This document shows positions 19,261 to 36,669 of a stretch of DNA of 45,904 nucleotides, one piece after another. The notes beneath the pieces were generated by a model that saw only the letters and a program-made list of their open reading frames with translations, had not been told where the DNA came from and did no database searches. Source of the DNA: Tepidanaerobacteraceae bacterium (GTDB taxonomy: Bacteria > Bacillota > Thermosediminibacteria > Thermosediminibacterales > Thermosediminibacteraceae); contig JASUSP010000006.1 in the NCBI GenBank assembly GCA_030446005.1, positions 1 through 45,904 of the forward strand, given 5' to 3'. Both the position numbers and the translations under genes were made by a program. Position 1 is the first letter of the stretch; each line of letters opens with the position of its first letter.

Positions 19261-22125
19261 ATGCTAAAGGGTCAAAGAGCAAAGAGATTGCTCGCGTTGT
19301 TGACGGTATTCTTCTTCATCGCTGGAAGTGTTTTCACCGGAGCCGCCAATACATCCAAAGTAGCATATGCCGCTACAATAGAAGAATTTCCGGCTGTAGA
19401 CTTAAACAAGCTCACATCGGATGTATCGGACAAAAACACAAAGGATGCCGTAATGAGGCTTGCAGCCTTCGGAATCGTAAACGGCATGGAAGATGGCAAG
19501 TACCATCCTGAAGAAAAGGTCACAAGGGAACAGTTTGCGAAGCTACTGGTGACCGCACTGGGTATGGAATCGGCAGCTAAAGCTGGAGTAGGGCATGTTA
19601 CCTTTAAGGATGTGGCCCCGAATAGGTGGTCTGCTGGATACATAAGCGTTGCGGCAGGTCAGGGGCTTATAAAAGGGTATCCCGATGGCACATTCAGGCC
19701 TGAAAAGCACGTAACCTATGCGGAAGCCGTGACGATGCTGGTCAGGGCTCTGGGGTACAAGGATGAGTTCCTCCCCGGCAAGTGGCCCGGCAACTACCTG
19801 GCAAAAGCTGCTGAAGCAGAAATTACAAAATATGTGAAATTTGCCGATGCTAGCGGTTACGCCACTAGAGGAGATGTAGCAATCCTCGTCAATAACACCC
19901 TTGATGCAGAGGTTGTAAAAGTAGATACCTATGAAAGCGGGAACGTAAAGTATTATGAATCCGAAAAAACCCTGCTCGAGGATAAACTGGACATCACAAA
20001 ATATGAAGATGTAAGAATTATCGCGAATAAGAGACTTGATGACAATCTCGACGATGATGAGGTAAGGGTAGTATTCCTGAATGAGACCGATGACGATAAA
20101 TACGACGAGGGCGATAAGAAAGAATTTGACGTAGTGAAGGGCTACAATGTGGAGCCAGTGATAGGCGAAGAAGTAACGATTTACCTGAACGATGACGATG
20201 AACTGGTATACGCCGAGAGGGAATACGACGATAAGGCAATGTTCGATTTTGTCGAAGGAACCGCTGATAATGATACAAAATTGAGCCTTGTAAAATTTGA
20301 CGATGATTACGAGTTTGACGACGATGCTATAGTATATATCACGGATTCAGATGGTGCAATAAAATATGAAGGTAGTAAAAACGTACTTGACCATATCAAA
20401 GAGTTTGTAGGAAAACCGGGTAAATATGTATTGAAAAACGACAAGATAGTATTTGCGGATGTAATCGATCCTACAGAAGTAGATGAGTGGATGGTAGTAA
20501 CCGATAATGAAGATGGTGTAATTAAGGGCATCTCCAAGACGGATGATGAAAAAGAGATTGATTTAAGGCCGGACGAGACTTACGACGGTGTAATCATCCT
20601 TGACACGGAAGGCAACGTGCTGTCGGTTGATGACATCGAAGAGGGCAATGTCGTCTATGTTGCTAAACAGGAAATCGACGGCGACGACTATGCGATAGTA
20701 AGGGTTGTTAAGGACAATATCATAAAAGGTACGCTGGAAGCCGTAAAAACGAATAAGATCAGAATAGGTGATGAGGAGATTAAACTGACGCAGTACTCCG
20801 GTGAGATAGTTGCATGCTACAGTGTTGATAACGGGGATACTATTGAGGAGTACGATTTAAATGACAGCGATGTAGCTTCCGACATGGAAGATGCCGATGG
20901 TGCTGACGTAATCGCATATACCGATGCGGGTGGAAGAATAGCGTACTTTGTAACAGAGGCCAAGGCTGTATCCGGTTACAGATACGGTATAGTAACGAAG
21001 ATTTATGAAGAGAGCGAAAAGCTGAAGATTTACACGCTTACAGGCAACGGAGAGGGAGACGAAATAGTTTACCCCGTTGAGGAGACCAGGAATCTATCAT
21101 ATGGAATTCCATTAAATGAATACGGCCATAAGGATGGCAGCCATCCAACTGCGCCAATAAAAGTAGGTAGTATCGTTAAGTTCAAACTCAACAAGAATGG
21201 CGAAATTGCCGAAGATGAAATATACGTAATGCCCGAGGATAAGTACTGGGGAGTAGAAGATGAAGATTTGACGGAGGATACTATACCTGATGCGACATTA
21301 AATAGTAATAGTAACGTAGTAGCATCCTTCGTTGTTGATGACGATACGGTTATAATTGACGCTAAGGAATATGATCCAGACATAGTATTTGCAGAGAATA
21401 CGTCCTATAATGCACTGAGCGAGGTGCCCAAATATTCAGATTCAAACGAAACAATAGATGTGGATGACGACTTCGAGGTAATAAAATGGGCGGATCTGGC
21501 GGAAGATGACAACTTCAGCGGAAAGTTCTACGTATTCTGCGATGATGACAACAACGTGGAAGCAGAGGCAATAATATTCATAAGAGAAGGCACGGACAAA
21601 GCCGCACAGGATGAAGAAGCAGCATACATTGTTGATAAGTGGTATAAAGGCGGAGACCTCTACGTTGAATACATCACCTACGGAGGCAGCGTAGAAGAGG
21701 CTAAAGCCGATTCAAAGGCCGAGGATATAATTAATAAACGCGGCAAGGAGAGACCCTATATAGTAAAAATTAAGGCTGATGGAGACCTGAAAGTTGTCGA
21801 TCCGAAAGAAGCAGACGACTTTAAGATTTACTTCGGCACGATAACCACAAAGAGCGGCAGCGATGTGACAGCAGTTGTATACCAGGTATATCAAGAAGAT
21901 GATACGAACCTTGTAATTAATTACGTAGGTGAAAAGCAATTCAAACTGGAGAACAAGGCTGTTGTATACGAAGAGGATGAGAAGAAGTCAACATCCAATA
22001 TACATGCTGGTGATTGTGTAGTATTCATAACCGAAAAAGGCGGAGTTAACATCAAGGTTATCGAGAGACTTGTAGATGAAGAAGCCGACAAAGTTAGAAG
22101 ATATGAATATCCATACGGAAACTAA
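19261..22125 (+). CDS. SLH-domain surface (S-layer-like) protein
   Basis: A 954-residue secreted protein. The first 37 or so residues are a signal peptide (basic start, hydrophobic core, VAYA-A cleavage region). Three SLH domains follow at about residues 45-100, 103-163 and 165-220 (FGIVNGMEDGKYHPEEKVTREQ; GLIKGYPDGTFRPEKHVTYAEA), which bind pyruvylated cell-wall polymer. The remaining 730 residues are highly acidic, full of Asp-Asp pairs and beta-strand-like repeats, with no recognised domain. Size, strong promoter, long structured leader and monocistronic terminator fit a major S-layer or abundant surface protein. Its acidity could bind calcium; that is inference. Confidence 0.85.
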   Translation: MLKGQRAKRLLALLTVFFFIAGSVFTGAANTSKVAYAATIEEFPAVDLNKLTSDVSDKNTKDAVMRLAAFGIVNGMEDGKYHPEEKVTREQFAKLLVTALGMESAAKAGVGHVTFKDVAPNRWSAGYISVAAGQGLIKGYPDGTFRPEKHVTYAEAVTMLVRALGYKDEFLPGKWPGNYLAKAAEAEITKYVKFADASGYATRGDVAILVNNTLDAEVVKVDTYESGNVKYYESEKTLLEDKLDITKYEDVRIIANKRLDDNLDDDEVRVVFLNETDDDKYDEGDKKEFDVVKGYNVEPVIGEEVTIYLNDDDELVYAEREYDDKAMFDFVEGTADNDTKLSLVKFDDDYEFDDDAIVYITDSDGAIKYEGSKNVLDHIKEFVGKPGKYVLKNDKIVFADVIDPTEVDEWMVVTDNEDGVIKGISKTDDEKEIDLRPDETYDGVIILDTEGNVLSVDDIEEGNVVYVAKQEIDGDDYAIVRVVKDNIIKGTLEAVKTNKIRIGDEEIKLTQYSGEIVACYSVDNGDTIEEYDLNDSDVASDMEDADGADVIAYTDAGGRIAYFVTEAKAVSGYRYGIVTKIYEESEKLKIYTLTGNGEGDEIVYPVEETRNLSYGIPLNEYGHKDGSHPTAPIKVGSIVKFKLNKNGEIAEDEIYVMPEDKYWGVEDEDLTEDTIPDATLNSNSNVVASFVVDDDTVIIDAKEYDPDIVFAENTSYNALSEVPKYSDSNETIDVDDDFEVIKWADLAEDDNFSGKFYVFCDDDNNVEAEAIIFIREGTDKAAQDEEAAYIVDKWYKGGDLYVEYITYGGSVEEAKADSKAEDIINKRGKERPYIVKIKADGDLKVVDPKEADDFKIYFGTITTKSGSDVTAVVYQVYQEDDTNLVINYVGEKQFKLENKAVVYEEDEKKSTSNIHAGDCVVFITEKGGVNIKVIERLVDEEADKVRRYEYPYGN

Positions 22126-23015: not shown

Positions 23016-26000
23016 ATGTTATATAAAACCAAAAAGCGTCCGGTATCGATTATTCTGGTATTTTGCCTTTTATTAAGCATCACTATTGGTGGGGGGGCTC
23101 TGACTGCAGCTCAGGCTGCCACACAGGCTGAGAGTTATACCGCTAAGCAATTGGCTGATAAGGCGGTACAGTTTATTAACGACAGATACAAAGCCGGGGA
23201 AAAAATTGACGGCTACACTGCATATGTCCTTACCCTGGCCGGAGAAGGTCTTTCGTCGGAAAAATGGTCCAGGAATGGTGAGAGTCTGAAGGAGGAAATA
23301 CAGAAAACTGCGGACCTTCTTGGCAATAACAGCAGCCTGATTACATATATCCTGGCTACACAGAACCCCGATGGCAGTTTCGGACCTTACGCCAACGAAT
23401 ATGGAACCAAAGCTCCTCTGCAGGCGCTAGCGATGGTAAAGAATGAAATAACCGATAGCAATTTAAAAGAAAAGGTGCAGGATAGTATTTCAAAAGCCGT
23501 AAAATATTTCAAGGATCGTTATTTAAAAGGATCCCTGGCTTATGATGCCCAGGGGTGGAAATTCGACTCCCGATGCGTGGAAGCCCTCTCCGAGGCAGGG
23601 GAAGACCTTTCCACATGGGTATACGGCGGCAAGTCTCTAAAAGATATAGTCATCACCTCCGCCGATGCCGCAGCGCGTAACGCCGCCGTTCTCGACGCTG
23701 TCTACCTTGCAAAAGAATTGACTGCCCTTAGAGCGGTAGACCCGCAATCTAATAATATCGACATTCTGGCCCAGGCTATTGCGAATAAGAGCAAAACTGT
23801 TGGCGATGCGGTTTATTTTGGGAACAGCATTTATGACGATGTGATGGTTCTGACCGCCCTCGGCAAGACGGGCAAACTTGGTCTAATAGACCAGCAAAAG
23901 GCATTTAATTACATCAATAAATTTGGACACCCGCACGAGAACAGTTGGGGTAATGAAGCGGGTGTCGCCTGGGGCGGCTATTATCCTGAAGAGCCCGACC
24001 TGACGGCACAGGTTATTACGGCCCTCAGCTATTTTGATGCGGCTCGCGATACCGGCAGCGATGTCTATAATGCAATTCAGGCCGGCCTCACTTATCTCGC
24101 GGACATCCAGGACCCCGAAACGGCGGCCATAAAAGCCCAGTGGGACAGCACCTTTGCAACGGCTGAAACCCTCATAGCCCTGAAATCAGTGGGGAAAAAA
24201 TATGATGATTACGCAGGCGCCGGTTCCTCCTGGGTGAAAAGATCGAAGACAAAGACCATCGCCCAGCACATATTGGCTTTAAACCTCTGGAAGGACGCGG
24301 AGAGGGTAAACAGACTGGTAAATCTTTTAAAAGAAAGGCATTCTTCAAAAGGCTTTGACAACAGCGTCTACAGCGACATGTGGGCGTATATCGCCCTAGG
24401 AGAAGCGGGGAAGATAAATGAAATAAATACTGCTGAAGCGCGAAGCTACATACTGGGGAAGCAGAGCCTATCGGGCGATAACGCCGGTTCCTGGGGAGAA
24501 GAATGGGATGGCGTGTTTTTCCCCGACTTTATGTCAACAGCTCAGGCCATTCGGGCTCTGACGTACCTACCAGGGGCTTTAGAAGACAAGCAGGTCCAGG
24601 ATGCCGTAGAAAAAGGCCTTGATTATCTTAAAAAACAATTACAGCCCGACGGCAGCGTATATACCACAAAGCCCTATCCGGATGATCCGGTGGTGGATAC
24701 GGCCGAGGTAATTGTTACATTAAAGAAATTGGGCAAGGATCCTACAGACTGGAAAAGCAGTCAGGGCTTCACTCCTGTTGACTACATGATGCAGAAAGCG
24801 TTGAACTCCGACGGCAGTTTCGGTGCAATGGGAAATATTCTTGACGCTGCGGAAGCGTTGAGTGCATTTCTTCTAATTGATGAAGAAGCAGAATTGCCGG
24901 AATCTTCCAGGATTGTTTCTGATTCTGATTCTGATCAAGCCAAGTGCAAAGTGTATGTAGCAGTTGTGGGCAAAGATGGGGAGCTGCTGTTCGGTCCCAG
25001 CTCCGTCACTGTAAGGGCAAATGGAAAATGGGGCCTGACGGCACTGGGAGCTCTGGATGCCACTGGCCTGGATTATGTTGATGACAACGGCTTTGTCAAA
25101 AACATTGAAGGACAGTCCAACAGTGGCATGAATGGATGGATGTATAAGGTCAACGGCAAGGTACCTTCCATACTGGCTTCCAAATTTACTATAGATGACG
25201 GTGATGAAATCATCTGGTGGTACAGTACAGATATAAATTCTACCGGCCCTGAGTGGGACGAACTGGTAAACGATGAAAAGACTCAGGAAAAGAAAGATGA
25301 AGATACCATTCCTTCCACCATTGTAGAACAGAATAAAAAGTTACCACAGGCTTTGCAGATTTCCGATGAAGCGCTGAAAGCACTTGAAAAAGTCGACCAA
25401 TTGCTCGAAATAAAAGCGAATACGAAAGATGCCGTGGGCCTTGAAGAAATAAACAAATCGGTAGTGGTTGTTGGAAACCGTGGACCTTTTAAACGCGATG
25501 AATTTTTGAATTTAAAAGAAATGCTTCTTCAAAATACGGTTGATGTTGAGAAAAAGATAGCTGCTTCAACGGGGACAGTCATTGCCGATAGCAAAGAGGA
25601 AATAGCCTTGATCATTCCGGCAGGTGCATTGAAAAATGATGTAGTAATATCGATCAAAGAGGTTAGTCTGCCATCAACTGAGAAAATCGGCGGTGATAGA
25701 GGCTTGAGCCCAATTCCTGCCGGCTACAAAGCTTTATCGGGAATTTACCAATTTTGCCCGGATGGAACCTCTTTTACTAAGCCTGTAACAGTGGCTATAA
25801 GAATTGCTATTCCGCTCCTGGTAAAACCGGAAAATCTAGCCCTTGCCTGGTATGATAAAGAAGGTGGCAAGTGGGCGGTTATCCCTGCTGTGGTGGACTT
25901 GCAAAAGGGTGTCATTCTGGCTAAGTTAGAACACTTCTCAGAAGTTGTCGTGTTTGCAAAGGAGGTAAAAAAATCGTTTGCTGATGTAAACGAGGCGTCT

Positions 26001-26510
26001 TTCAAATGGGCCAAGGATGCTGTTGAAGCTCTGGGCGGAGCCGGAATTGTGACGGGAGTTGACGGAACTCGCTTCGAGCCGCGCCGTGCTGTGACCAGGG
26101 CGGAGTTTGTTAGCCTTCTGGTCAGGGCACTGGGCCTTGAACCAAAGACGGGCAGAAAAGGACAATTCAAAGACGTAAAAGAAGATGCGTGGTCTGCAAA
26201 AGCCGTGTACACCGCTGCGGACTGGGGCTTTGTCAACGGCTATGAAGATGGCACATTCCGTCCTAATGGTACCATTACCAGGGAGGAGATTGCGGTTATC
26301 CTGTCCCGTACATTCGGGCTTGCCTCATCTGGGAAAAAGCCAGATTTTAAAGATAGAAAAATGATTTCGCCGTGGAGCGAGGAAAGTGTAGCTGCTGCTG
26401 TAGCTGGAGGGTTGCTCAAGGGGTTTGAAGACGGTACATTCCGGCCGAAAGCTACGGCCAGCAGGGCAGAAACCGCCGTTATAATATACCGAATTATGGG
26501 AGGAGAATAG
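23016..26510 (+). CDS. SLH-anchored, intrinsic-factor-like cobalamin-binding surface protein
   Basis: A secreted 1164-residue protein. Signal peptide (1-35) is followed by alpha/alpha-barrel repeats of the squalene-cyclase/prenyltransferase type to about residue 625 (QNPDGSFGPYANEYGTKAPL; GDNAGSWGEEWDGVFFPDFM; LNSDGSFGAMGNILDAAEAL). Residues 644-750 form a DUF4430 domain (KWGLTALGALDATG; NSGMNGWMYKVNGK; GDEIIWWYS), the family related to the transcobalamin/intrinsic factor C-terminal domain. A ZU5-like segment (PAGALKNDVVISI, about 840-985) and three SLH domains (about 990-1164) finish it. Helical barrel plus beta domain is how mammalian intrinsic factor sandwiches B12. The riboswitch and the downstream ECF transporter support cobalamin capture at the cell wall. 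Cyclase activity is unlikely. Confidence 0.88.
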   Translation: MLYKTKKRPVSIILVFCLLLSITIGGGALTAAQAATQAESYTAKQLADKAVQFINDRYKAGEKIDGYTAYVLTLAGEGLSSEKWSRNGESLKEEIQKTADLLGNNSSLITYILATQNPDGSFGPYANEYGTKAPLQALAMVKNEITDSNLKEKVQDSISKAVKYFKDRYLKGSLAYDAQGWKFDSRCVEALSEAGEDLSTWVYGGKSLKDIVITSADAAARNAAVLDAVYLAKELTALRAVDPQSNNIDILAQAIANKSKTVGDAVYFGNSIYDDVMVLTALGKTGKLGLIDQQKAFNYINKFGHPHENSWGNEAGVAWGGYYPEEPDLTAQVITALSYFDAARDTGSDVYNAIQAGLTYLADIQDPETAAIKAQWDSTFATAETLIALKSVGKKYDDYAGAGSSWVKRSKTKTIAQHILALNLWKDAERVNRLVNLLKERHSSKGFDNSVYSDMWAYIALGEAGKINEINTAEARSYILGKQSLSGDNAGSWGEEWDGVFFPDFMSTAQAIRALTYLPGALEDKQVQDAVEKGLDYLKKQLQPDGSVYTTKPYPDDPVVDTAEVIVTLKKLGKDPTDWKSSQGFTPVDYMMQKALNSDGSFGAMGNILDAAEALSAFLLIDEEAELPESSRIVSDSDSDQAKCKVYVAVVGKDGELLFGPSSVTVRANGKWGLTALGALDATGLDYVDDNGFVKNIEGQSNSGMNGWMYKVNGKVPSILASKFTIDDGDEIIWWYSTDINSTGPEWDELVNDEKTQEKKDEDTIPSTIVEQNKKLPQALQISDEALKALEKVDQLLEIKANTKDAVGLEEINKSVVVVGNRGPFKRDEFLNLKEMLLQNTVDVEKKIAASTGTVIADSKEEIALIIPAGALKNDVVISIKEVSLPSTEKIGGDRGLSPIPAGYKALSGIYQFCPDGTSFTKPVTVAIRIAIPLLVKPENLALAWYDKEGGKWAVIPAVVDLQKGVILAKLEHFSEVVVFAKEVKKSFADVNEASFKWAKDAVEALGGAGIVTGVDGTRFEPRRAVTRAEFVSLLVRALGLEPKTGRKGQFKDVKEDAWSAKAVYTAADWGFVNGYEDGTFRPNGTITREEIAVILSRTFGLASSGKKPDFKDRKMISPWSEESVAAAVAGGLLKGFEDGTFRPKATASRAETAVIIYRIMGGE

Positions 26511-26546: not shown

Positions 26547-27359
26547 GTGAAAAACCAAGCTGTAAAGATTTCGATTATTATAGCACTACTACTTGCCATA
26601 ATAATAACCTTAACCACGGCTGAAAAAAACCACAGGTCTTTGATGTCTAATAATGTGAATACAGAGCCGACGAGTGCTATAATAAACGGACAGACAGAGC
26701 AGAAAGCCGGTGGACTTGCGGGCGGTTCGCAGGAGAAGGAAACAGGCACTGCTGCGGGTAGCGTTACTGTTAAAAAAAAGATCGGTGAAAAGGCAGAGCT
26801 TGCCGATGTAAAGTCACAGACAGAAATAAGACAGATTCCTAATGCTAAATCCGTGTCTGCCGGTAGCAGGGGTACTTCGGCAAGCAGTACTGCGGTTTCC
26901 TCTGAGGTTAATATGTCCTCGGCCGCTTCTGATAAAAAAGAGTCCGCTGCTGATGGCAGTGATACTACAAAAGAAACCGACTCAACTTCTGTTGCAGCAG
27001 GCAAATGTCAGGTGGAAATTGCCATTGTCGGAAAAGAAGGTCGGATAGTGTACGGCCCTGCAAAGGTGGCAGTAAAAGAGAACAACAGGTGGGGGTTAAC
27101 GGTGCTGGGTGCTCTCGATTCCACCGGAGTTGAATATAACACCAGCCCGACGTATGCTGGTTTTGTCATAAGCATAGCAGGACAGGCAAACAAAGGTATG
27201 TCGGGCTGGATGTACAAGGTAAACGATGAGGTGCCAATGGCTGCCGCAAGTGAGAAAAAGATCAAACCGGGCGATAGGATAATCTGGTGGTACAGCGAGA
27301 GCATCAGTACCCCCTCTCCCGACTGGGAGAGTTTGGTTAAGAATTCGCCTCAAAATTGA
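26547..27359 (+). CDS. Membrane-tethered DUF4430 (transcobalamin C-terminal-like) protein
   Basis: A 270-residue protein with one N-terminal hydrophobic helix (IIIALLLAIIITL), no lipobox, and a Ser/Thr/Lys/Gly-rich linker of about 110 residues. The C-terminal DUF4430 domain (about 154-262) is closely similar to that of the preceding protein: RWGLTVLGALDSTG, KGMSGWMYKVNDE and GDRIIWWYSE. GTG 26547 follows GGGGG. The flexible linker suits a second B12-binding module held at the membrane, able to take ligand from the wall-anchored protein and pass it to the ECF transporter encoded next. The transfer role is inference. Confidence 0.85.
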   Translation: MKNQAVKISIIIALLLAIIITLTTAEKNHRSLMSNNVNTEPTSAIINGQTEQKAGGLAGGSQEKETGTAAGSVTVKKKIGEKAELADVKSQTEIRQIPNAKSVSAGSRGTSASSTAVSSEVNMSSAASDKKESAADGSDTTKETDSTSVAAGKCQVEIAIVGKEGRIVYGPAKVAVKENNRWGLTVLGALDSTGVEYNTSPTYAGFVISIAGQANKGMSGWMYKVNDEVPMAAASEKKIKPGDRIIWWYSESISTPSPDWESLVKNSPQN

Positions 27360-27374
27360 GAGGAGAAAATTATA

Positions 27375-28304
27375 ATGCTGGACCGCTTTTTTTATAGAGA
27401 AAAAGGGCTCTTTTTGCAGAGTCTTCACCCGTTGTCCGCGTTAACATATATTGCAGTTTTGCTGGTGCTGGCGTTGGTGTTCAACCACCCGCTTTACCTC
27501 CTTGGACTGCTGGCAGTTACAGTCACGGCCATTAAAGCTCTTGACGGGATAGATGCCTGGAAAACTTTTCTCAGAGTAAGCTTGGGGGCAGCTTTTGTTA
27601 TCGTAATTGTAAATGCGATTACTGTGCGCGCTGGCGAGACCATCATATGGCACGGACCGTACATACCGGTTTTCGGCAGGTTGAACGTCTCACTGGAGGC
27701 CGTTTGTTATGGTGCGGACATGGGATTAAGGCTTCTGGATATAATGAGCATTTTTTGCCTTTACAATTTTATGATTCATCCCGACCGGATCCTGGATTTG
27801 CTGTCCCGCTTTTCTTTCAAGTCCGCACTGGTGCTTTCACTCGCCGCCAGGATGTTCCCCACCATGGTAAGTCGGCTGGATAGTATCAAGGAAGTGCAGG
27901 CAGCGAGAGGAGTCGATTTTAATGCCGGAACATTAAAAGAAAAAATGGGGAAATACGTCGTATTGATGAAAATACTACTTTTAACTTCTATGGAAGATTC
28001 CATGGAAACGGCGGAAGCCATGTATGCGAGGGCGTTTGGCAGCGGCAAGCGTTCACACTATGTCCGTGATGCCTGGAGGCCTAGAGATAGCGTCTGTCTT
28101 ACCGCAAGCCTGCTCGCTATGGGAGTAGCGATGTACGGTTGGACCAAAGGCCTGGGCACATTCAGCTTTTATCCGCGGCTTGCTTATCTTATTGACGGGC
28201 TTACGGGAATTGTGCTCCTTTTCGCCGTAATTTTTCTGTTATCCTTCCCATTAATATTGAGTTGGGGGTGGCACAATTGCCCCTTTATCAAATCAAAAAT
28301 CTGA
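27375..28304 (+). CDS. ecfT: ECF transporter transmembrane component EcfT
   Basis: EcfT is the scaffold coupling the ATPases to the S component in energy-coupling-factor vitamin importers. The 309-residue protein has about five to six hydrophobic helices; the C-terminal cytoplasmic coupling helices carry the paired family motifs SIKEVQAARGVDFN and AEAMYARAFGSG. It starts at ATG 27375, 15 bases after the DUF4430 gene, and overlaps the ATPase gene. Placement within a B12-riboswitch operon makes it a dedicated rather than shared module. Confidence 0.9.
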   Translation: MLDRFFYREKGLFLQSLHPLSALTYIAVLLVLALVFNHPLYLLGLLAVTVTAIKALDGIDAWKTFLRVSLGAAFVIVIVNAITVRAGETIIWHGPYIPVFGRLNVSLEAVCYGADMGLRLLDIMSIFCLYNFMIHPDRILDLLSRFSFKSALVLSLAARMFPTMVSRLDSIKEVQAARGVDFNAGTLKEKMGKYVVLMKILLLTSMEDSMETAEAMYARAFGSGKRSHYVRDAWRPRDSVCLTASLLAMGVAMYGWTKGLGTFSFYPRLAYLIDGLTGIVLLFAVIFLLSFPLILSWGWHNCPFIKSKI

Positions 28305-29947
28305 CTTATTTTTACCCCAACAGCCGGAAGCCTGCATTAAAAGACATAGATATGATTATTGAAGAGGGAGAGTTTTTGCTCATTGCTGGCGGTTCCGGTT
28401 CGGGGAAATCTTCTCTTGCTCGGGTGCTCGCTGGCTTAATTCCCGGCTTTTATGGTGGTCGCATCGGTGGCAGCGTTTTCTTTCGGGGCAAAGATATTAA
28501 GCAGCTTGACAAACGCAGTATAGCAAGGGAAGTGGGGATAGTCTTCCAGGATCCGGAAAAACAGCTAATTATGACAAGCGTGGAGGCCGAAATTGCGTTT
28601 GGCTTGGAAAACCTGGGTCTTCCACGGCAGGAGATGGCCCGCCGTATTGCCGAAGTCATGAGTTTTTTGGGGCTTGCGGAGCTAAAGCGAGAATTTACTG
28701 TAAAACTATCAGGTGGTCAAAAACAAAAACTTGCCCTGGCTGCAGTACTTGCCATGCAGCCTTCGGTTTTAATCCTTGATGAGCCCACTTCTCAACTGGA
28801 CCCGGTAGCGGCGGAGGATTTTCTCAATCTTGTAAAACGTTTGAATGAAGATATAGGCATGACCGTGATTTTAATCGAACAGAGGCTGGAAAGGTGTTTT
28901 CATATAGCAGACAGAATTGTGCTTATGGAAGGTGGAAGAATAAGATTTGAGGGCACACCTGAGCAGGTGGCTCGCTGGGCGGCACAGTGTGGAGAGCCTT
29001 TTATCCCACCTGTCGCCCGCTTCTTCGGCAAGGCAGGTCTTAATACAATTCCCGTCACGGTAAAAGAAGGACGGCGTATGCTGAGAGAAAAATTTAAACC
29101 TTCTTCGGGAGATTTTTATTTAAAGCATCCCGGTGTAGTGCATGAAGAAGAACCGCTCTTACGGATGGAAAGGGTATGGTTCGCATATCCCGATGGCAGG
29201 GAAGCGTTGCAGGATATAAATTTACAATTTTTTGCCGGAGAGCTGGTGGCCGTGCTGGGAGCCAATGGAGCGGGCAAATCCACGCTACTCAAAACCATGG
29301 CAGGGCTGTTGAAACCAGGACGCGGCCGGGTAATGTTGATGGGTGGGGAACCGGGGAGCAGCGTCAGTCGGAAGGCATGGAATTCATGTGTGGGTTACCT
29401 TTCCCAGAATCCCAGCGATTACCTGTTTCAGGATACTGTAGAGGAAGAATTATTATATACTTTAAAAAATTTTGGCATCAGCCCGAACGGTGTAGTTGAT
29501 GAAATAATGGATAAGCTTTCGCTGCAGGACTTTCGACACGCAAATCCGCGGGATTTGAGCTGTGGGGAACGCCAGAAGGTGGCCCTGGCTTCGGTTATGG
29601 TCACGAGACCAAAGCTTTTGCTGCTGGATGAACCTACCAGGGGGCTTGACTATCGCCAGAAGGCCGAAATGGGGAAAGTACTGTTAGATTACTGCAGGCA
29701 GGGGGCAAGTGTTGTACTGACTACCCACGATGTGGAATTTGCAGCAGAATACGCATCGAGAGTTATAATGATGTTCTGTGGCAGGATAGTATGTGACGGT
29801 CCAACACATCAAGTTCTATCAGAGTCGATTTTTTATTCTACCCAGATCGGTAGGATGTGTCGGGGGTTTGCAGACGGTATTCTAACTCCGGAGGAAGCTC
29901 TGGCCGTGTTAAAACCTGCGTCGCCCGGAAAACGGGAAAGGAAGTGA
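28277..29947 (+). CDS. ecfA: ECF transporter fused double ATPase
   Basis: About 556 residues with two complete ABC ATPase domains in one chain, replacing separate EcfA and EcfA'. Domain 1: Walker A GGSGSGKSS (38-46), Q-loop VFQDPEKQL, signature LSGGQ, Walker B VLILDEPTSQLDP. Domain 2: Walker A GANGAGKST, YLSQNPSDYLF, signature LSCGE (Gly replaced by Cys) and LLLLDEPTRGLD with TTHD. TTG 28277 is chosen because GGGGGTGG lies six bases upstream; it overlaps ecfT by 28 bases. ATP hydrolysis would power uptake by the neighbouring T and S components. Confidence 0.92.
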   Translation: MPLYQIKNLTYFYPNSRKPALKDIDMIIEEGEFLLIAGGSGSGKSSLARVLAGLIPGFYGGRIGGSVFFRGKDIKQLDKRSIAREVGIVFQDPEKQLIMTSVEAEIAFGLENLGLPRQEMARRIAEVMSFLGLAELKREFTVKLSGGQKQKLALAAVLAMQPSVLILDEPTSQLDPVAAEDFLNLVKRLNEDIGMTVILIEQRLERCFHIADRIVLMEGGRIRFEGTPEQVARWAAQCGEPFIPPVARFFGKAGLNTIPVTVKEGRRMLREKFKPSSGDFYLKHPGVVHEEEPLLRMERVWFAYPDGREALQDINLQFFAGELVAVLGANGAGKSTLLKTMAGLLKPGRGRVMLMGGEPGSSVSRKAWNSCVGYLSQNPSDYLFQDTVEEELLYTLKNFGISPNGVVDEIMDKLSLQDFRHANPRDLSCGERQKVALASVMVTRPKLLLLDEPTRGLDYRQKAEMGKVLLDYCRQGASVVLTTHDVEFAAEYASRVIMMFCGRIVCDGPTHQVLSESIFYSTQIGRMCRGFADGILTPEEALAVLKPASPGKRERK

Positions 29948-29961
29948 AAGGGAATATGCTT

Positions 29962-30675
29962 ATGAAAAAACTGTTGTCCAGAATTCTATTCTGGCTCGGG
30001 TTTGCAATTATCCCGATATTTCTGGCGACCGCCATGTCGGGGAAGACTTCCATCACCCGAGAATGGGGGCTGGCGGCATCTATTATCATCTTCGGCGCTG
30101 TTGGTTTGATGTACCTGAGCTTTGAACTGGACGCTTCCTCCCCTAGAGAAATTGCCGTAATAGCGGTGCTGGGAGCCGTTGGTGCCGCAGGTCGGTTTGC
30201 CTTTGCCGCCCTGCCCAATATACAGCCTACTACATTTATAGCAATCGCTTCCGGGTATGTCTTCGGACCGACTGCTGGTTTTATGACGGGTTCTACCGCG
30301 GCTCTGGTTTCGAACTTTTTTCTGGGGCAAGGGCCGTGGACACCGTGGCAGATGTTTGCGTGGGGTCTCGCCGGCTCGTCGGCTGGTATCGTTAAACGTC
30401 TCTTCCCGCACATAGGCAGATGGGGAATGGCCGCTTTCTGCTTTTTATGGGGGTATTTTTTTGGATGGATTTTAAACCTGTGGTCATGGACTACCTTCGT
30501 TAAACCATTAAACTGGCAGAGTTTTGTCGCCGTTTGTGCGGCAAGTTTCTGGTTTGATACTTTTCACGCCATAGGCAATGCGGCATTTTACCTGCTTTTC
30601 GGCACAGGCTTTATGAAGATACTGAATCGGTTTAAGCTCAAGATGACTGTTACGTATATAGGAGCTGATGACTAG
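29962..30675 (+). CDS. ECF transporter S component, predicted cobalamin-specific
   Basis: A 237-residue membrane protein with six or so helices of the ECF S-component type: the segment IAVIAVLGAVGAAGRFAF followed by GYVFGPTAGFMTGSTAALVSN and WQMFAWGLAGSSAGIV matches the family's small-residue-rich core. ATG 29962 is favoured over 29956 because AAAGGGA lies 8 bases upstream. It closes the riboswitch operon, so its substrate is probably cobalamin or a corrinoid precursor (CbrT/CblT-like); sequence alone does not separate these. No separate terminator is visible before the next promoter. Confidence 0.85.
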   Translation: MKKLLSRILFWLGFAIIPIFLATAMSGKTSITREWGLAASIIIFGAVGLMYLSFELDASSPREIAVIAVLGAVGAAGRFAFAALPNIQPTTFIAIASGYVFGPTAGFMTGSTAALVSNFFLGQGPWTPWQMFAWGLAGSSAGIVKRLFPHIGRWGMAAFCFLWGYFFGWILNLWSWTTFVKPLNWQSFVAVCAASFWFDTFHAIGNAAFYLLFGTGFMKILNRFKLKMTVTYIGADD

Positions 30676-30857: not shown

Positions 30858-30919
30858 TGCAATAATTGATTTATTATTTGAGCAATCAAAGGGGGGATAT
30901 TTTTTAAAAAGACAAACTG

Positions 30920-30933
30920 ACCGAACGGTCGGT
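30920..30933. promoter_or_regulatory. Second TetR/AcrR-type operator in the RND leader
   Basis: ACCGA-ACGG-TCGGT within CTGACCGAACGGTCGGTAC resembles well-known AcrR/TetR-class operators. It is unlike the AGTAAGT site, suggesting a different regulator, perhaps the TetR at the end of this operon. Confidence 0.6.
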
Positions 30934-30993
30934 ACTGTTCCAACTAAAAAAATTAAAAATGACAATTACAGTAAAGTAAAAGGGGTGCATTTT

Positions 30994-32241
30994 ATGAAGT
31001 TTTGCAGAAAAAACACCAAAATAATAGCTTCGCTATTGCTGATTTTCTTTGTGGCGTCAATATTCCTTCTTGCTGGATGTTCAAAAAAGGAAGGAGAAGA
31101 AAAAAATGATACAGCAGTACCGGTAAAAGTGATGAAAACAAAAAAGGACAAAATAGAAGACATAGTGACTTTTACAGGCCAGATTGAAGCGGGGGATGAG
31201 GTTAAAATTGTAAGCAAGATTTCGGGAAGGGTAAAAGAAGTTAATTTTGAAGTAGGTGATTATGTAAAAGAAGGAGAACCTCTCGTAATACTTGAGACAG
31301 AAGAACTGTACGACCAGCTCGCCCAAGCGGAGGCCGCTTTAGCAGCGGCAAGAGCCAATCTTGCAGCAAATGAATCGGGGGCGTTGCCACAGCAGCTTGA
31401 GCAGGCAAAGGCAGCTTTTGAGCAGGCCGAAGCAAATTATTTAAACGCCAAGGCTGATTATGAGCGCATGAAGGCCTTGTATGAGGCGGATGCAATTTCC
31501 AAGCAGGCATTCGACAGCATGGAACTGAAGTACAAAGTGGCAAAGAGCCAGTATGAAAGCGCAAAAGAACAATTGAAGCTGACCGAAGAACGCCTACCAA
31601 AAAATATTGAAGCACTGAGAGCTCAGGTTGCTCAGGCGCAGGCTCAGGTTGAGCTTATAAAAACGAATATAAAAAATTCGGTTATAAGGGCACCTATATC
31701 GGGTATGATTTCATCAAAACATATAAATCCCGGCGAGATGTGCCAGGCAGGGGTGACGCTTGGTTCAATAGTTAATATAGATAAGGTTAAAGTGGTTATT
31801 GATGTGCCGGAAGAGGATATTAATAAAATAAAAGATGGACAGGAAGCGACAGTGAATATAGATGCTCTAGGGGATGAAGGTAAAATAAAGGGGAAAATAA
31901 GCATTATTTCGCCGGCATCGGGTTCAGCCAGGCTTTTTAAGGTAAAAATCGAGATGGAAAACAAAGATCATAGGTTAAAGCCCGGCATGTTTGCAAGTGT
32001 GAATGTTGTCAGGGGTGTAAAGGAAAATGTGATTACGGTTCCAAAAGATGCTGTGCTGATTAAAAAACATGGCAATGTGGTGTATGTTGTAAAGGAAGGC
32101 AAGGCGGAAGAGCGGCTTGTGAAGATCGGAGTTACAAACGGAGACAGAGTTGAAATAACGGAGGGCCTTAATGAAGGCGAAATGGTTGTAATAAGTGGGC
32201 AAAACATGCTGATGGAAGGCTCTGCGGTAAAAATCCAGTGA
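30994..32241 (+). CDS. RND efflux periplasmic-adaptor (MFP) lipoprotein
   Basis: A 415-residue membrane-fusion protein that links an RND pump to an exit duct. The lipobox LLAGC places the lipidated Cys at residue 29. Domains follow in order: barrel-sandwich/lipoyl half GRVKEVNFEVGDYVKEGEP, a coiled-coil hairpin of Ala/Gln/Lys-rich heptads (about 105-225), the second lipoyl half VIRAPISGMISSKHINPGEM, the beta-barrel and the membrane-proximal domain (VVISGQNMLMEGS). ATG 30994 is chosen because AAAAGGGG lies 8 bases before it. It starts a four-gene operon. Confidence 0.92.
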   Translation: MKFCRKNTKIIASLLLIFFVASIFLLAGCSKKEGEEKNDTAVPVKVMKTKKDKIEDIVTFTGQIEAGDEVKIVSKISGRVKEVNFEVGDYVKEGEPLVILETEELYDQLAQAEAALAAARANLAANESGALPQQLEQAKAAFEQAEANYLNAKADYERMKALYEADAISKQAFDSMELKYKVAKSQYESAKEQLKLTEERLPKNIEALRAQVAQAQAQVELIKTNIKNSVIRAPISGMISSKHINPGEMCQAGVTLGSIVNIDKVKVVIDVPEEDINKIKDGQEATVNIDALGDEGKIKGKISIISPASGSARLFKVKIEMENKDHRLKPGMFASVNVVRGVKENVITVPKDAVLIKKHGNVVYVVKEGKAEERLVKIGVTNGDRVEITEGLNEGEMVVISGQNMLMEGSAVKIQ

Positions 32242-32264: not shown

Positions 32265-35200
32265 ATGAGAATTACGGAGACGGTTGTAAAAAGACCTATT
32301 GCAACATTCATGGCTGTGCTTGTCATAATTATCCTCGGGTTTGTTTCCTTGAGCAAGATGCAGATTGATTTGCTGCCGGATATACAGCTTCCGACGGCTG
32401 TTATTGTAACAACATACCCCGGGGCAAGCTCCGAAGAAATAGAGACGATGATAACAAAGCCGATTGAAAAGGAAATAGCCGGGATAGAAAACATAAAAAG
32501 CATATCTTCATCAAGTGAAGCCAACGTTTCAATGATTACGGTGAGTTTCAACTGGGGAACAGACCTTGATACAGCGGTGACGGATATAAGAGAGAAAGTG
32601 GATATGGTTAAAAAAAGATTGCCGGACGATGCAGATGAACCACTGGTGTTTAAGTTTGACCCGTCTATGTTGCCGGTGCTTATTTACGGCATGACGGGTG
32701 ACAGAGATCCGCTTTTGATGAAGCAGATTGCTGAAGATATAATAGAAAAAAGGCTTGAGAGGGTAGCGGGAGTTGCAAGCGTCCAGGTTACAGGTGGAGT
32801 AGAGCGCCAGATAAGGGTACTATTATCACCACAAAAGATGAACGGGTATGGAATCAGCTTTTCACAGGTTATACAGGCACTTGCAGCAAATAACCTGAAC
32901 CTGCCAGGCGGAACCGTTGACTACGGCAGTAGGGAGCTTATAGTGAGGACTACCGGAGAATTTGAAAATGTGGACGAAATAAAAAACCTTCCTGTAGCTA
33001 ATAGGCAGGGAGCCATTGTTAGATTAAGCGATATAGCTGATGTAAAAGATGCTACGGAAGACGTAAAAACCCATTCCAGAATCAACAAGTACGAAGGATT
33101 AAGAATACTTATACAAAAATCCAGCGACGCTAACACGGTGGCGGTGGCAAATGGAGTAAAAAAAGAACTCGAAGCGATTAAAAAAGAACTTCCAAGAGGT
33201 ATAGAGCTATATCAAATATTGGACCAATCGGACTTTATAAACAGGTCAATAAACAACGTGATATCAAGTGCAATACAAGGCGGTTTACTTGCGGTAATAG
33301 TTCTCTATCTTTTTTTACATAATTTCAGGTCAACAGTTGTTATTGCAATTTCCATACCAATCTCAATTATAGCCACATTTGTTGTAATGTATTTTAGCGG
33401 CATTACGATAAACTTAATATCCCTTGGCGGCCTTGCTCTGGGAATAGGTATGCTGGTGGATAGTTCCATAGTTGTGCTTGAAAACATATATTACCACAGA
33501 GAATTAGGGCTTAACAGCATGGAAGCGGCATCTGTAGGAGCAAGTGAGGTTACTCTTGCGTTAGTGGCATCTACACTGACGACGGTTGTCGTATTTTTAC
33601 CGATAGTCTTTGTAAAAGGCTTGGCGGGAATAGTTTTCAAGGAAATGAGTCTCACCATCACTTTCTCTCTCATGTCTTCTCTGATTGTTGCTATTACGAT
33701 CGTACCTTTGCTGAGTTCTCGTCTGGTCAAAGTAACCCCCACAGAAGAGAAAAAACAGGGCTTTCTTGCCAAGATATTCGAGAGAATGGACAGATTTTAC
33801 AATAGTATAGATGAAAAGTATGGGAAGCTTCTTGCGTGGGCCCTGGGGCACAGGAAGATTGTAATACTTGCAATTGTTGTGCTTCTTGCCATAAGTGTGG
33901 CGGCAGTGCCACTTGTAGGTACAGAATTTTTCCCGGAGACCGATGAGGGTAGGATTTCAATCAGTGTGGAATATCCTGTTGGCACAAAAGTTGAGAAGAC
34001 CGATGAGTTGGTTAAATCCATAGAAAATGTAGTTGCTTCAATACCAGAAGTTCAGATGTATTCGTCACAGGTTGGAACGGATACAAGAAGGAGCTTCCTC
34101 GGGACGACCGGAAGCGGCGAAATGGCCAGCATGGACGTGCGCCTTGTCCCGGTTAGCGAAAGGAAGAGGTCAACTAAGGATGTAGTTGAAGAAATCAGGC
34201 AAAAAATAGGAGAAGTCCCTGGGGCAAAAATCGAGATAAACAGCGCATCTATGATAAGCACTATGGGTTCTGCTATAGCAGGAAGCAGTAAACCAGTCCA
34301 AATTGCCATAAAGGGAGACGATTTTGCCACCCTTGAAAACCTTGCCGAAAAAATTAAAGCTATAGTCAAGAAAGTGCCGGGCACAAGGGATGTTGAGACA
34401 TCTATAGATGAGGGGAGACCGGAAGTCCGGATAAAAGTTGATAAGGACAGGGCATCATACTATGGCCTGGATGCAGGTCAGGTGGCGCAAGCAGTAAGAA
34501 TTGCAATAAATGGAGTTGAAGCAACCAAATACAGAGTTGCCGGGACAGAGGTGGAAGTGAATGTCCAGCTCAATGAGCTTTCAAGGAAGACCCTTGAAGA
34601 CCTTGAAGGAATGACATTGATGTCTCCGTCTGGCGTCAGTGTGCCGCTTAGAAACATAGCTAAATTTACGATTACTGAAGGCCCTAATGTGATTAATCGT
34701 GTGGATCAGGAGCGAGTAGTGTATGTGACTGCCGATATTTACAGGAGGAGTTTGGGAGAAGTAACAAATGACATCAAGTCAGCAGTTTCTTCAATCAATC
34801 TGCCGGAAGGCTACAGTATAAGTTTTGAAGGCCAGAATAAAGAAATGATGGAATCGTTTGCGGATCTATTCCAGGCTATGCTTCTTGCAGTATTCCTTGT
34901 TTATGCAGTAATGGCAGCCCAGTTCGAGTCACTCCTTCATCCATTTACCATAATGTTTGCAATACCATTCTGCACAACAGGTGTTGTATTTGGCCTGCTT
35001 TTAAGCAGGAGGGCGTTCAGCGTGCCTGCATTTATCGGTGTTATAATGCTGGCGGGCATTGTGGTTAACAACGCCATTGTATTAGTGGATTATATTAACC
35101 AGTTGAGGGCAAAAGGAAAGACGGTCAGAGAGGCTATAGTTGAAGCCGGCCCAAGAAGGCTCAGGCCCATCATGATGACAACACTTACGACAGTTCTCGG

Positions 35201-35405
35201 CCTTTTACCCCTTGCTCTTGGAATTGGTGAAGGCAGTGAAATCCAGGCGCCCCTTGCTGTTACCGTGCTGGGAGGATTGTCCGTCTCAACCCTTTTGACC
35301 CTTGTGGTTGTGCCTGTGCTTTATTCAATATTTGAAGACCTGTCTGCAAGGATGATAAGAAGAATAAATATATTTAAGCAAAAACTCGGCAGAAATCTCG
35401 TTTAA
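32265..35405 (+). CDS. RND-family efflux permease (AcrB/SwrC-like)
   Basis: A 1046-residue protein, full length for the hydrophobe/amphiphile efflux (HAE) family, with 12 predicted helices in two repeats, each with a large extracytoplasmic loop. The start MRITETVVKRPIATFMAV and PTAVIVTTYPGASSEEIE are typical. In helix 4 the proton-relay region reads GMLVDSSIVVLEN: one Asp (about residue 398) is kept, but the AcrB Asp-Asp pair is Asp-Ser, as is common outside Proteobacteria. Substrates cannot be told from sequence; Firmicute relatives (SwrC) export surfactants and drugs. The ATG is 23 bases after the adaptor. Confidence 0.94.
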   Translation: MRITETVVKRPIATFMAVLVIIILGFVSLSKMQIDLLPDIQLPTAVIVTTYPGASSEEIETMITKPIEKEIAGIENIKSISSSSEANVSMITVSFNWGTDLDTAVTDIREKVDMVKKRLPDDADEPLVFKFDPSMLPVLIYGMTGDRDPLLMKQIAEDIIEKRLERVAGVASVQVTGGVERQIRVLLSPQKMNGYGISFSQVIQALAANNLNLPGGTVDYGSRELIVRTTGEFENVDEIKNLPVANRQGAIVRLSDIADVKDATEDVKTHSRINKYEGLRILIQKSSDANTVAVANGVKKELEAIKKELPRGIELYQILDQSDFINRSINNVISSAIQGGLLAVIVLYLFLHNFRSTVVIAISIPISIIATFVVMYFSGITINLISLGGLALGIGMLVDSSIVVLENIYYHRELGLNSMEAASVGASEVTLALVASTLTTVVVFLPIVFVKGLAGIVFKEMSLTITFSLMSSLIVAITIVPLLSSRLVKVTPTEEKKQGFLAKIFERMDRFYNSIDEKYGKLLAWALGHRKIVILAIVVLLAISVAAVPLVGTEFFPETDEGRISISVEYPVGTKVEKTDELVKSIENVVASIPEVQMYSSQVGTDTRRSFLGTTGSGEMASMDVRLVPVSERKRSTKDVVEEIRQKIGEVPGAKIEINSASMISTMGSAIAGSSKPVQIAIKGDDFATLENLAEKIKAIVKKVPGTRDVETSIDEGRPEVRIKVDKDRASYYGLDAGQVAQAVRIAINGVEATKYRVAGTEVEVNVQLNELSRKTLEDLEGMTLMSPSGVSVPLRNIAKFTITEGPNVINRVDQERVVYVTADIYRRSLGEVTNDIKSAVSSINLPEGYSISFEGQNKEMMESFADLFQAMLLAVFLVYAVMAAQFESLLHPFTIMFAIPFCTTGVVFGLLLSRRAFSVPAFIGVIMLAGIVVNNAIVLVDYINQLRAKGKTVREAIVEAGPRRLRPIMMTTLTTVLGLLPLALGIGEGSEIQAPLAVTVLGGLSVSTLLTLVVVPVLYSIFEDLSARMIRRINIFKQKLGRNLV

Positions 35406-35469: not shown

Positions 35470-36669
35470 ATGAGGAGTAGAAAAATCATATCTTTCCTTG
35501 CAGGTCTCTTATGTTTTTTAATACCGCTTGCAGGTTTTGCGGAATCCAAAGTTCGCGGAGATGTTTCTGCTAATACAACCGAAATCGCAAGCAGTGCATC
35601 CGAAAGTCCTAACGCTGAAGAAAAAGTAAGCTTTTCACTTGAAGAATGCATAAATACCGCTCTTCAAAACAATATAAGCTTGAAAATTTCTCGGCAGGAA
35701 TACGAAAAAACAATAGTGGAGCGAGAAGAAGCTGAATTTCAAGCAAAGAAGATAGAAGAGATTCGAGATGATAAGATATTGAGAAATTATGTTCCAACGG
35801 CTTTCAGCTTTGAGGGAGCACAGATCAAAGACCTCGCTCCCAAGTTGAAAGAAGCCAATGAACTGATAGCGAAAAAGAACCTTGCTCTTGATGAGCAAAA
35901 CCTGAGGATAGAGGTGGAAAAAGCCTATTTCAATGTGCTAAAAGCTCAGGACAACCTGAAAAACGCAGAGGTACAACTTCAGCGAGCTAAAGAACAGCTA
36001 AAAAACGCCCAGGAAAGCTATAAGCAAGGTGTTGTGGCAAAAGATTCGGTTTTAATGGCAGAATCTGCAGTTGCCAGCGCTGAAGCAAACAGGGTTTCGG
36101 CAGAAAAAAACCTTCAACTTGCAAAAATGAACCTCAACAAAATTATGGGCCGCAGCCTTACGGCTCCTCTGGAACTCACGACTACTTTCACTTATATTCC
36201 TGCTGAAATCCCAGATGTTGAAGAAATGGTCAAAAGCGCCTTGGCACTCAGGCCGGAAGTTATCAGTGTGAGAAAAATGCAGGAAGTTGCGGAACTCAAC
36301 TGTAAGCTCGCACTAAAATACTACGCTGAAAACACTTTTACTTATAGAAAGGCAAAAATAGAGCTGGAAAAAGCTATATTAGGAGTAAAGGAAGCGGAAA
36401 ACCAGATAGAACTTGCGGTAAGGTCGGCGCATTATTCATTGGTAGAGGCTGCGGAAAAATTGAAAGCTGCCCAAAAGGCTAAGGAGACAGCGCAGGAAGT
36501 ATACAGAATAACAGAACTTAAGTATAAATCACAGGCTGCCACAATGGCGGAAGTGCTCCAGGCCATGGAAAATTTGAGGCAGGCAGAACTTTTATATACA
36601 GCCTCAGTGTTCGATTATAATGTGGCAAGGGCGCAGCTTGACAACTGGGCAGGAAAAGGTCTGGAATAG
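35470..36669 (+). CDS. TolC/OEP-like protein, short form without clear barrel strands
   Basis: A 399-residue secreted protein with a signal peptide (to about AGFAES) and two OEP-type coiled-coil repeats: SLEECINTALQNNISLKISRQ, NLRIEVEKAYFNVLKAQDNL and a second copy ending AEVLQAMENLRQAELLYTAS. TolC repeats normally hold beta strands between the helices; here the second repeat has only about 12 residues (KYYAENTFTYRK) where some 50 are expected, and the first also seems shortened. It may be a helical duct reaching through wall and S-layer without an outer-membrane barrel. It completes an adaptor-pump-duct operon in what otherwise looks like a monoderm. Confidence 0.85.
   Translation: MRSRKIISFLAGLLCFLIPLAGFAESKVRGDVSANTTEIASSASESPNAEEKVSFSLEECINTALQNNISLKISRQEYEKTIVEREEAEFQAKKIEEIRDDKILRNYVPTAFSFEGAQIKDLAPKLKEANELIAKKNLALDEQNLRIEVEKAYFNVLKAQDNLKNAEVQLQRAKEQLKNAQESYKQGVVAKDSVLMAESAVASAEANRVSAEKNLQLAKMNLNKIMGRSLTAPLELTTTFTYIPAEIPDVEEMVKSALALRPEVISVRKMQEVAELNCKLALKYYAENTFTYRKAKIELEKAILGVKEAENQIELAVRSAHYSLVEAAEKLKAAQKAKETAQEVYRITELKYKSQAATMAEVLQAMENLRQAELLYTASVFDYNVARAQLDNWAGKGLE

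Follow-up and report, generated by a model that had tools for sequence, protein, structure and literature searches.

The window, the whole stretch of 45,904 nucleotides analysed here, belongs to a genome of 1.90 Mb that is 83% complete. The closest relative with a name is Fervidicola ferrireducens, at 96% identity, of the family Thermosediminibacteraceae. The window carries a four-gene pump cluster in the order MFP-RND-OEP-TetR, with gaps of 23, 64 and 27 nt, and the OEP gene under study is the third. The features of the cluster and its surroundings are as follows.

19261-22125, plus strand: ORF for a candidate S-layer protein, possibly the main one, 954 aa, acidic, with two SLH matches (PF00395) near the N-terminus
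23016-26510, plus strand: SLH-anchored DUF4430 protein, from a profile search
30919-30933, plus strand: palindrome GACCGAACGGTCGGT ahead of the adaptor gene, possibly a TetR operator
30985-32241, plus strand: periplasmic adaptor (MFP/HlyD) with lipobox LLAGC; PF16576/PF13437, TIGR01730 at 264 bits
31465-31500, plus strand: adaptor hairpin-tip motif RMKALYEADAIS, RLS-type; such a motif also arises in 80 of 1000 shuffles of the adaptor protein
32265-35405, plus strand: RND permease, 1046 aa; PF00873 at 950 bits, NF033617 at 827 bits, below the NF033617 cut-off
35470-36669, plus strand: barrel-less OEP/TolC-family duct subunit, ORF of 399 aa with an ATG start; PF02321 in two stretches, 109.6 bits
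35470-35541, plus strand: putative Sec signal peptide, residues 1-24, without a lipobox cysteine, from sequence reading and a hydrophobic-run heuristic; predicted cleavage site
35767-35814, plus strand: repeat-1 outer tip, residues 100-115, replacing barrel strands; FSFEG motif kept in eight orthologues
36028-36051, plus strand: repeat-1 inner loop GVVAKDSV, putatively adaptor-docking; the TolC equivalent in a phmmer alignment is GLVAITDV
36322-36336, plus strand: repeat-2 outer tip, where a turn of five residues (285-289) replaces barrel strands, from AlphaFold2 helix boundaries and the anchor spacing given below
36535-36555, plus strand: repeat-2 inner loop AATMAEV, a second putative adaptor-docking loop
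36697-37278, plus strand: TetR-family regulator (PF00440), 27 nt past the OEP gene

The RLS-type motif we take to be R-x3-L-x6-S/T. The palindrome GACCGAACGGTCGGT has one site in the window and none in 100 shuffles. An initial annotation of this DNA had placed the OEP with an adaptor and an RND pump in a genome with SLH proteins; both pump genes lie in the operon, and SLH proteins are found in the window and in the genome. ORFs at 26547-30675, read as DUF4430-like, EcfT-like, EcfA-like and EcfS-like, adjoin the SLH-anchored DUF4430 protein, and the group has the appearance of an ECF uptake cluster whose binding partner is anchored at the surface. Contig C46 carries a paralogous copy of the adaptor-RND-OEP-TetR cluster, again with a barrel-less OEP. 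Neither the window nor the C46 copy holds a barrel-bearing OEP partner. OEP matches in the source genome comprise two short OEPs only, plus weak matches located in adaptor genes.

The window OEP is a secreted OEP/TolC-family protein. Both coiled-coil repeats are present, with two PF02321 matches above the cut-off, and TolC proteins are its best PDB sequence matches. With E. coli TolC (1EK9) it shares the two OEP repeats, long coiled-coil hairpins and the inner docking loop. No surface-binding domain is found in it by Pfam profile search. The barrel was measured as the spacing between the conserved helix anchors that flank each barrel insert. In repeat 2 this spacing is 59 residues in the window OEP and 110 in TolC of E. 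coli K-12. In repeat 1 it is 85 against 99, and about 16-25 tip residues are left. TolC itself contributes four barrel strands per subunit, as given in PMC8809574. By the strict OMF criterion, barrel strands in both repeats, the window OEP thus has a repeat 2 without a barrel-sized insert and a shortened repeat 1. Eight orthologues in other genomes, 58-96% identical, all have the repeat-2 spacing of 59, and the paralogue (G000:C46) likewise keeps it. The short repeat 2 is therefore not a sequencing or assembly accident, and a truncated or broken gene is ruled out as well.

Across all rows measured, repeat-2 spacing is bimodal. It is 95-102 in the unpaired barrel OEPs of Omp85-positive Bacillota (n=27) and 51-65 in the short OEPs of Omp85-negative genomes (n=71), where it is exactly 59 in 50. 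These counts come from 196 rows, 17 repeats of the same gene having been removed from 213, and omit L035 and L036, which are cut by contig ends, as well as the long OEPs of L101, L076 and L109, which are also cut. There are two exceptions among Omp85-negative genomes. L174 (G276) has a repeat-2 spacing of 97, but its insert is proline/acid-rich and not barrel-like. L175 (G104:C160, 272-1645) has a real barrel insert and sits beside MFP and MacB-like genes without a detected Omp85; the G104 assembly has 450 contigs and 3% contamination, and this OEP may be a contaminant or a transfer. Some Omp85-negative OEPs are long, 459-665 aa, with a repeat-2 spacing of 59 (L089, L090, L091 and L092, also L176). 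Their extra length is a tip of 84-159 residues in repeat 1 only, in some of them with abundant helix formers.

An AlphaFold2 model of the window OEP, built from a three-row alignment (pLDDT 72, pTM 0.44), contains helices 57-99, 116-185, 191-226, 250-284, 290-353 and 359-394, with a one-residue break in two of them. In repeat 2, a five-residue turn joins helices 262-284 and 290-353 with pLDDT of about 86. The repeat-1 tip, residues 99-122, is low-confidence coil and may include a stray strand pair. All 44 PDB fold matches of the model at E<=1e-3 are TolC/OMF proteins, and VIA-align superposes it on 9tg4 TolC (Z 19.2, 314 aligned, rmsd 5.8) and on 1ek9 (Z 16.7, 318 aligned, rmsd 5.9). Helices and PDB matches agree on a helical-hairpin topology in each repeat. 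A Bacteroidota barrel OEP, modelled as a control with the same three-row alignment, showed no strands (pLDDT 46.8); the case for a missing barrel is therefore made by length and alignment, the model having been dropped as proof of it. Intact coiled-coil halves with a reduced repeat-2 insert had been proposed initially, and the two OEP matches and the spacing bear this out.

None of the 26 genomes sampled from the species, genus, family, order and class of the source bacterium has Omp85 (PF01103), the 83% complete source genome included, so that an outer membrane is not indicated. The initial annotation had proposed a check for BamA, and this one showed no Omp85. Among the relatives lacking it are six from the genus and family whose genomes are 98-100% complete. 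Omp85 is present in 8 of 61 genomes overall and exceeds the cut-off in 73 of 299 genomes sampled from the phylum. LptD was discarded as an outer-membrane marker: its count was 0 of 31 genomes, and the Omp85-positive G026 was missed too, making it uninformative. Thermosediminibacter oceani presumably shares its NCBI family with Fervidicola. It is listed as monoderm by TEM, without Lpx, LptA, OmpH and BamA, in a TEM-based table of PMC11448272. The source bacterium is apparently bounded by one membrane only.

The barrel-less form also occurs in genomes with Omp85. A short-OEP profile (alignment A1, which itself included seven short OEPs from Omp85-positive genomes) matched 72 of the 73 Omp85-positive genomes. 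The matches listed are ordinary long OEPs and many full-length matches in frames of about 350-450 aa. Together with short OEPs identified beforehand, the short-type matches listed, each of them examined, give at least 62 short OEPs, which come from G057 and 45 of the 73 genomes (46 in all) and from 23 family groups; all 62 have a repeat-1 spacing of 58-62 and a repeat-2 spacing of 57-59. Every one of these 62 shares strand and pump cluster with a barrel-bearing long OEP, the pairing being called by profile in 60 and by reading in two (L182, L189). The clusters mostly also hold MFP and RND or MacB-like ABC genes. Where a short-long distance has a value (59 pairs), 50 pairs are overlapping or at most 19 nt apart, pump genes intervene in eight and one is at a broken contig end. 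Four long partners run off contig ends. Another, L080 (G057:C137, 7370-9517, minus strand), forms a single frame with the C-terminal part of an RND permease beside the short OEP; a natural RND-OEP fusion or a lost stop is possible.

Among Omp85-negative genomes with an OEP (n=143), 80 were searched with A1 and 40 loci were fetched, of which 38 hold short OEPs. A long partner is found at none of these 38. An RND gene is present in the fetched stretch of 21, MFP or ABC genes in five others and none of these in 12. Two different short OEP genes stand in tandem in place of a short-long pair at L085, L172 and L173, all in Omp85-negative genomes, and L172 and L173 are among the 38 loci. No family group contains both monoderm-type and diderm-type short OEPs.

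The long partners carry an enlarged insert. A spacing of at least 115 in one repeat is found in 56 of 57 paired long OEPs and in 1 of 27 unpaired ones (Fisher 2e-19; Mann-Whitney 2e-11), a descriptive comparison in which the 115-residue limit was set after the spacings had been seen and related genomes are treated as independent, so that kinship inflates the p-values. The enlargement lies in repeat 1 in 43 paired long OEPs and in repeat 2 in 15, both being enlarged in two, suggesting at least two origins. In the six genomes where both long kinds were measured (G063, G310, G243, G184, G050 and G057), only the paired one is enlarged. Enlarged tips have 0.37 helix formers and 0.39 turn formers, close to ordinary barrel inserts (0.31-0.33 and 0.40) rather than to the helical core (0.57 and 0.22). 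The simplest reading is compensation, in which the long subunit supplies the strands absent from the short one. Alternatively, the enlarged partner may belong to a stack of two tubes or bear extra extracellular loops.

The short OEPs of diderms share the stripped repeat 2 with the window OEP but differ from it in their repeat-1 spacing, in their tip motif NDYTPxL and in a barrel-bearing neighbour, which they always have and the window OEP does not. Monoderm short OEPs as a group have a repeat-1 spacing of 68-219 and the tip motif YxxNTFxY. Since both tip motifs and repeat-1 spacings differ, the two kinds may be two separate closures. In a tree from which the inserts were omitted, short and long rows split almost cleanly, with 3 label changes against a shuffled mean of 28.7. 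A single clade of all short OEPs survives the AU test (p 0.86), that tree lying 21 log units above the free search, and so does a clade of paired short and paired long OEPs (p 0.78). Both constraints pass, and a tree-based choice between single and repeated origin was given up. These tests kept 93 of 139 rows, 46 with long branches or odd composition having been taken out. Apart from E. coli TolC and a Thermophagus OEP, all rows analysed come from Bacillota.

We estimate a probability of about two in three that the product of the window gene is a barrel-free exit duct of the TolC type and represents a distinct pump part of Bacillota, paired in diderms and alone in monoderms. This reading is built on the sequence family, the operon, a repeat 2 without a barrel-sized insert, the absence of Omp85 and the pairing statistics. 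The barrel-free OEP would be secreted by Sec and would probably trimerise into the usual alpha-helical tube. Its inner loops would dock onto the hairpins of the lipoprotein adaptor, and the duct would take substrate delivered by the RND pump away from the cell's single membrane. At its outer end, the duct would be closed into tight helical turns, which would make an outer-membrane barrel impossible. The cluster would be under TetR control. The OEP may be seated in the wall or S-layer. Diderms encode the short OEP with a second OEP that has an oversized barrel insert, and monoderms such as this Fervidicola relative would use the barrel-free member only. Because the diderm short OEP is encoded with an oversized-barrel OEP, the diderm duct is probably a two-OEP assembly in a four-part pump. 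On this sequence evidence, we read the barrel-free form as a pump part in its own right and not merely as a by-product of membrane loss. A fuller version, to which we would give somewhat less than an even chance, is that Bacillota have a four-part pump whose duct combines the barrel-free OEP with an enlarged partner giving all outer-membrane strands; the barrel-free OEP would be ancient, and loss of the outer membrane would have spared it. The partner's insert would then be enlarged because it supplies all the outer-membrane strands. Only the barrel partner would have become dispensable when the outer membrane was lost, and monoderms would therefore still run TolC-type pumps.

An explanation in the line of Stubenrauch et al. 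(2022) and of the initial annotation has monoderms lose the barrel by adaptive erosion and seats the outer end of the duct in the S-layer lattice. In the sample of 299 genomes of the phylum, OEP is found in 215 and SLH in 258. The 226 genomes without Omp85 divide into 139 with both, 4 with OEP only, 46 with SLH only and 37 with neither, so that SLH accompanies 139 of 143 OEP-positive but 46 of 83 OEP-negative genomes (Fisher 4e-15, descriptive and uncorrected for kinship). This agrees with the S-layer genes that accompany each of the 12 monoderm TolC-like proteins in PMC8809574, where C. difficile is also cited as shedding its TolC-like protein with the S-layer. An OEP-family protein is likewise reported in a monoderm surface extract in PMC4137172. 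However, SLH is widespread, CWB2 anchors occur in just one of the four OEP-positive SLH-negative genomes, and the window OEP has no surface-binding domain. Moreover, Omp85-positive Bacillota commonly carry an equally barrel-less form, in each case beside a barrel-bearing partner. The suggested duct across wall and S-layer thus keeps the support of the operon, the SLH genes, the missing Omp85 and the OEP-SLH co-occurrence, but the loss of the barrel as an adaptation to that setting is not supported, and we consider this explanation as a whole unlikely. Somewhat easier to accept, though still rather doubtful, is that the losses were independent: diderm short OEPs would be duplicates of their long neighbours, and monoderm ones would have eroded after outer-membrane loss. 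The differing tip motifs and repeat-1 lengths point this way, and the clade of paired short and long OEPs is compatible with it. So, however, is a single clade of all short OEPs with the data, and the commonest repeat-2 spacings of the two kinds, 59 and 58, are only one residue apart.

Some monoderm RND pumps, for example in Bacillus, work without any OEP. The window OEP might accordingly be a secreted coiled-coil scaffold or cap that steadies the adaptor ring, with the substrate freed at the membrane, and it has no barrel to anchor an outlet. It nevertheless retains the adaptor-docking loop and the full TolC-like hairpin topology, and we regard a scaffold as distinctly improbable. Least credible, and very improbable indeed, is an unrecognised outer membrane with a barrel from another protein. 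The incompleteness of the source genome would allow it, and the Bacillota ancestor has been argued to be diderm (PMC5007114). Against it stand the six nearly or fully complete relatives lacking Omp85, the TEM of Thermosediminibacter oceani (PMC11448272) and a source genome whose OEP matches reduce to the two short OEPs and weak hits on adaptor genes.

A TolC-like duct without part of the barrel was proposed for S-layered monoderm Firmicutes in 2022 (PMC8809574), and the window OEP is a further member of these monoderm TolC-like proteins. Shared with them are the monoderm Firmicute host, the operon with adaptor and pump, the omission in the barrel domain, the S-layer genes and the absence of BAM. 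That paper models one C. difficile protein and presents 12 operons, and a monoderm operon containing two TolC-like genes is also mentioned there. The present analysis measures the omission in 71 proteins and, in addition, finds an equally stripped form in Omp85-positive genomes, beside a long partner. The cluster also resembles HAE-1 RND tripartite pumps of the AcrAB-TolC type in having adaptor, RND permease and OEP together with a TetR gene, but its outlet is without an outer-membrane part. What is new, as judged from sequence, is that barrel-lessness is not confined to monoderms: diderm Bacillota regularly encode the short form as a pump part with a partner. A search of open-licence papers found no report of paired short and long OEPs. 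The partnered short OEPs of diderms shift the explanation away from erosion for an S-layer seat and towards a barrel-free subunit whose existence or origin did not depend on loss of the outer membrane. The pairing predicts a heteromeric or stacked outlet, of a kind described for no OEP in the open-licence literature searched. A barrel-free subunit would need no BAM, and the paired genes of the diderms offer a clue to how the pump outlasted the outer membrane.
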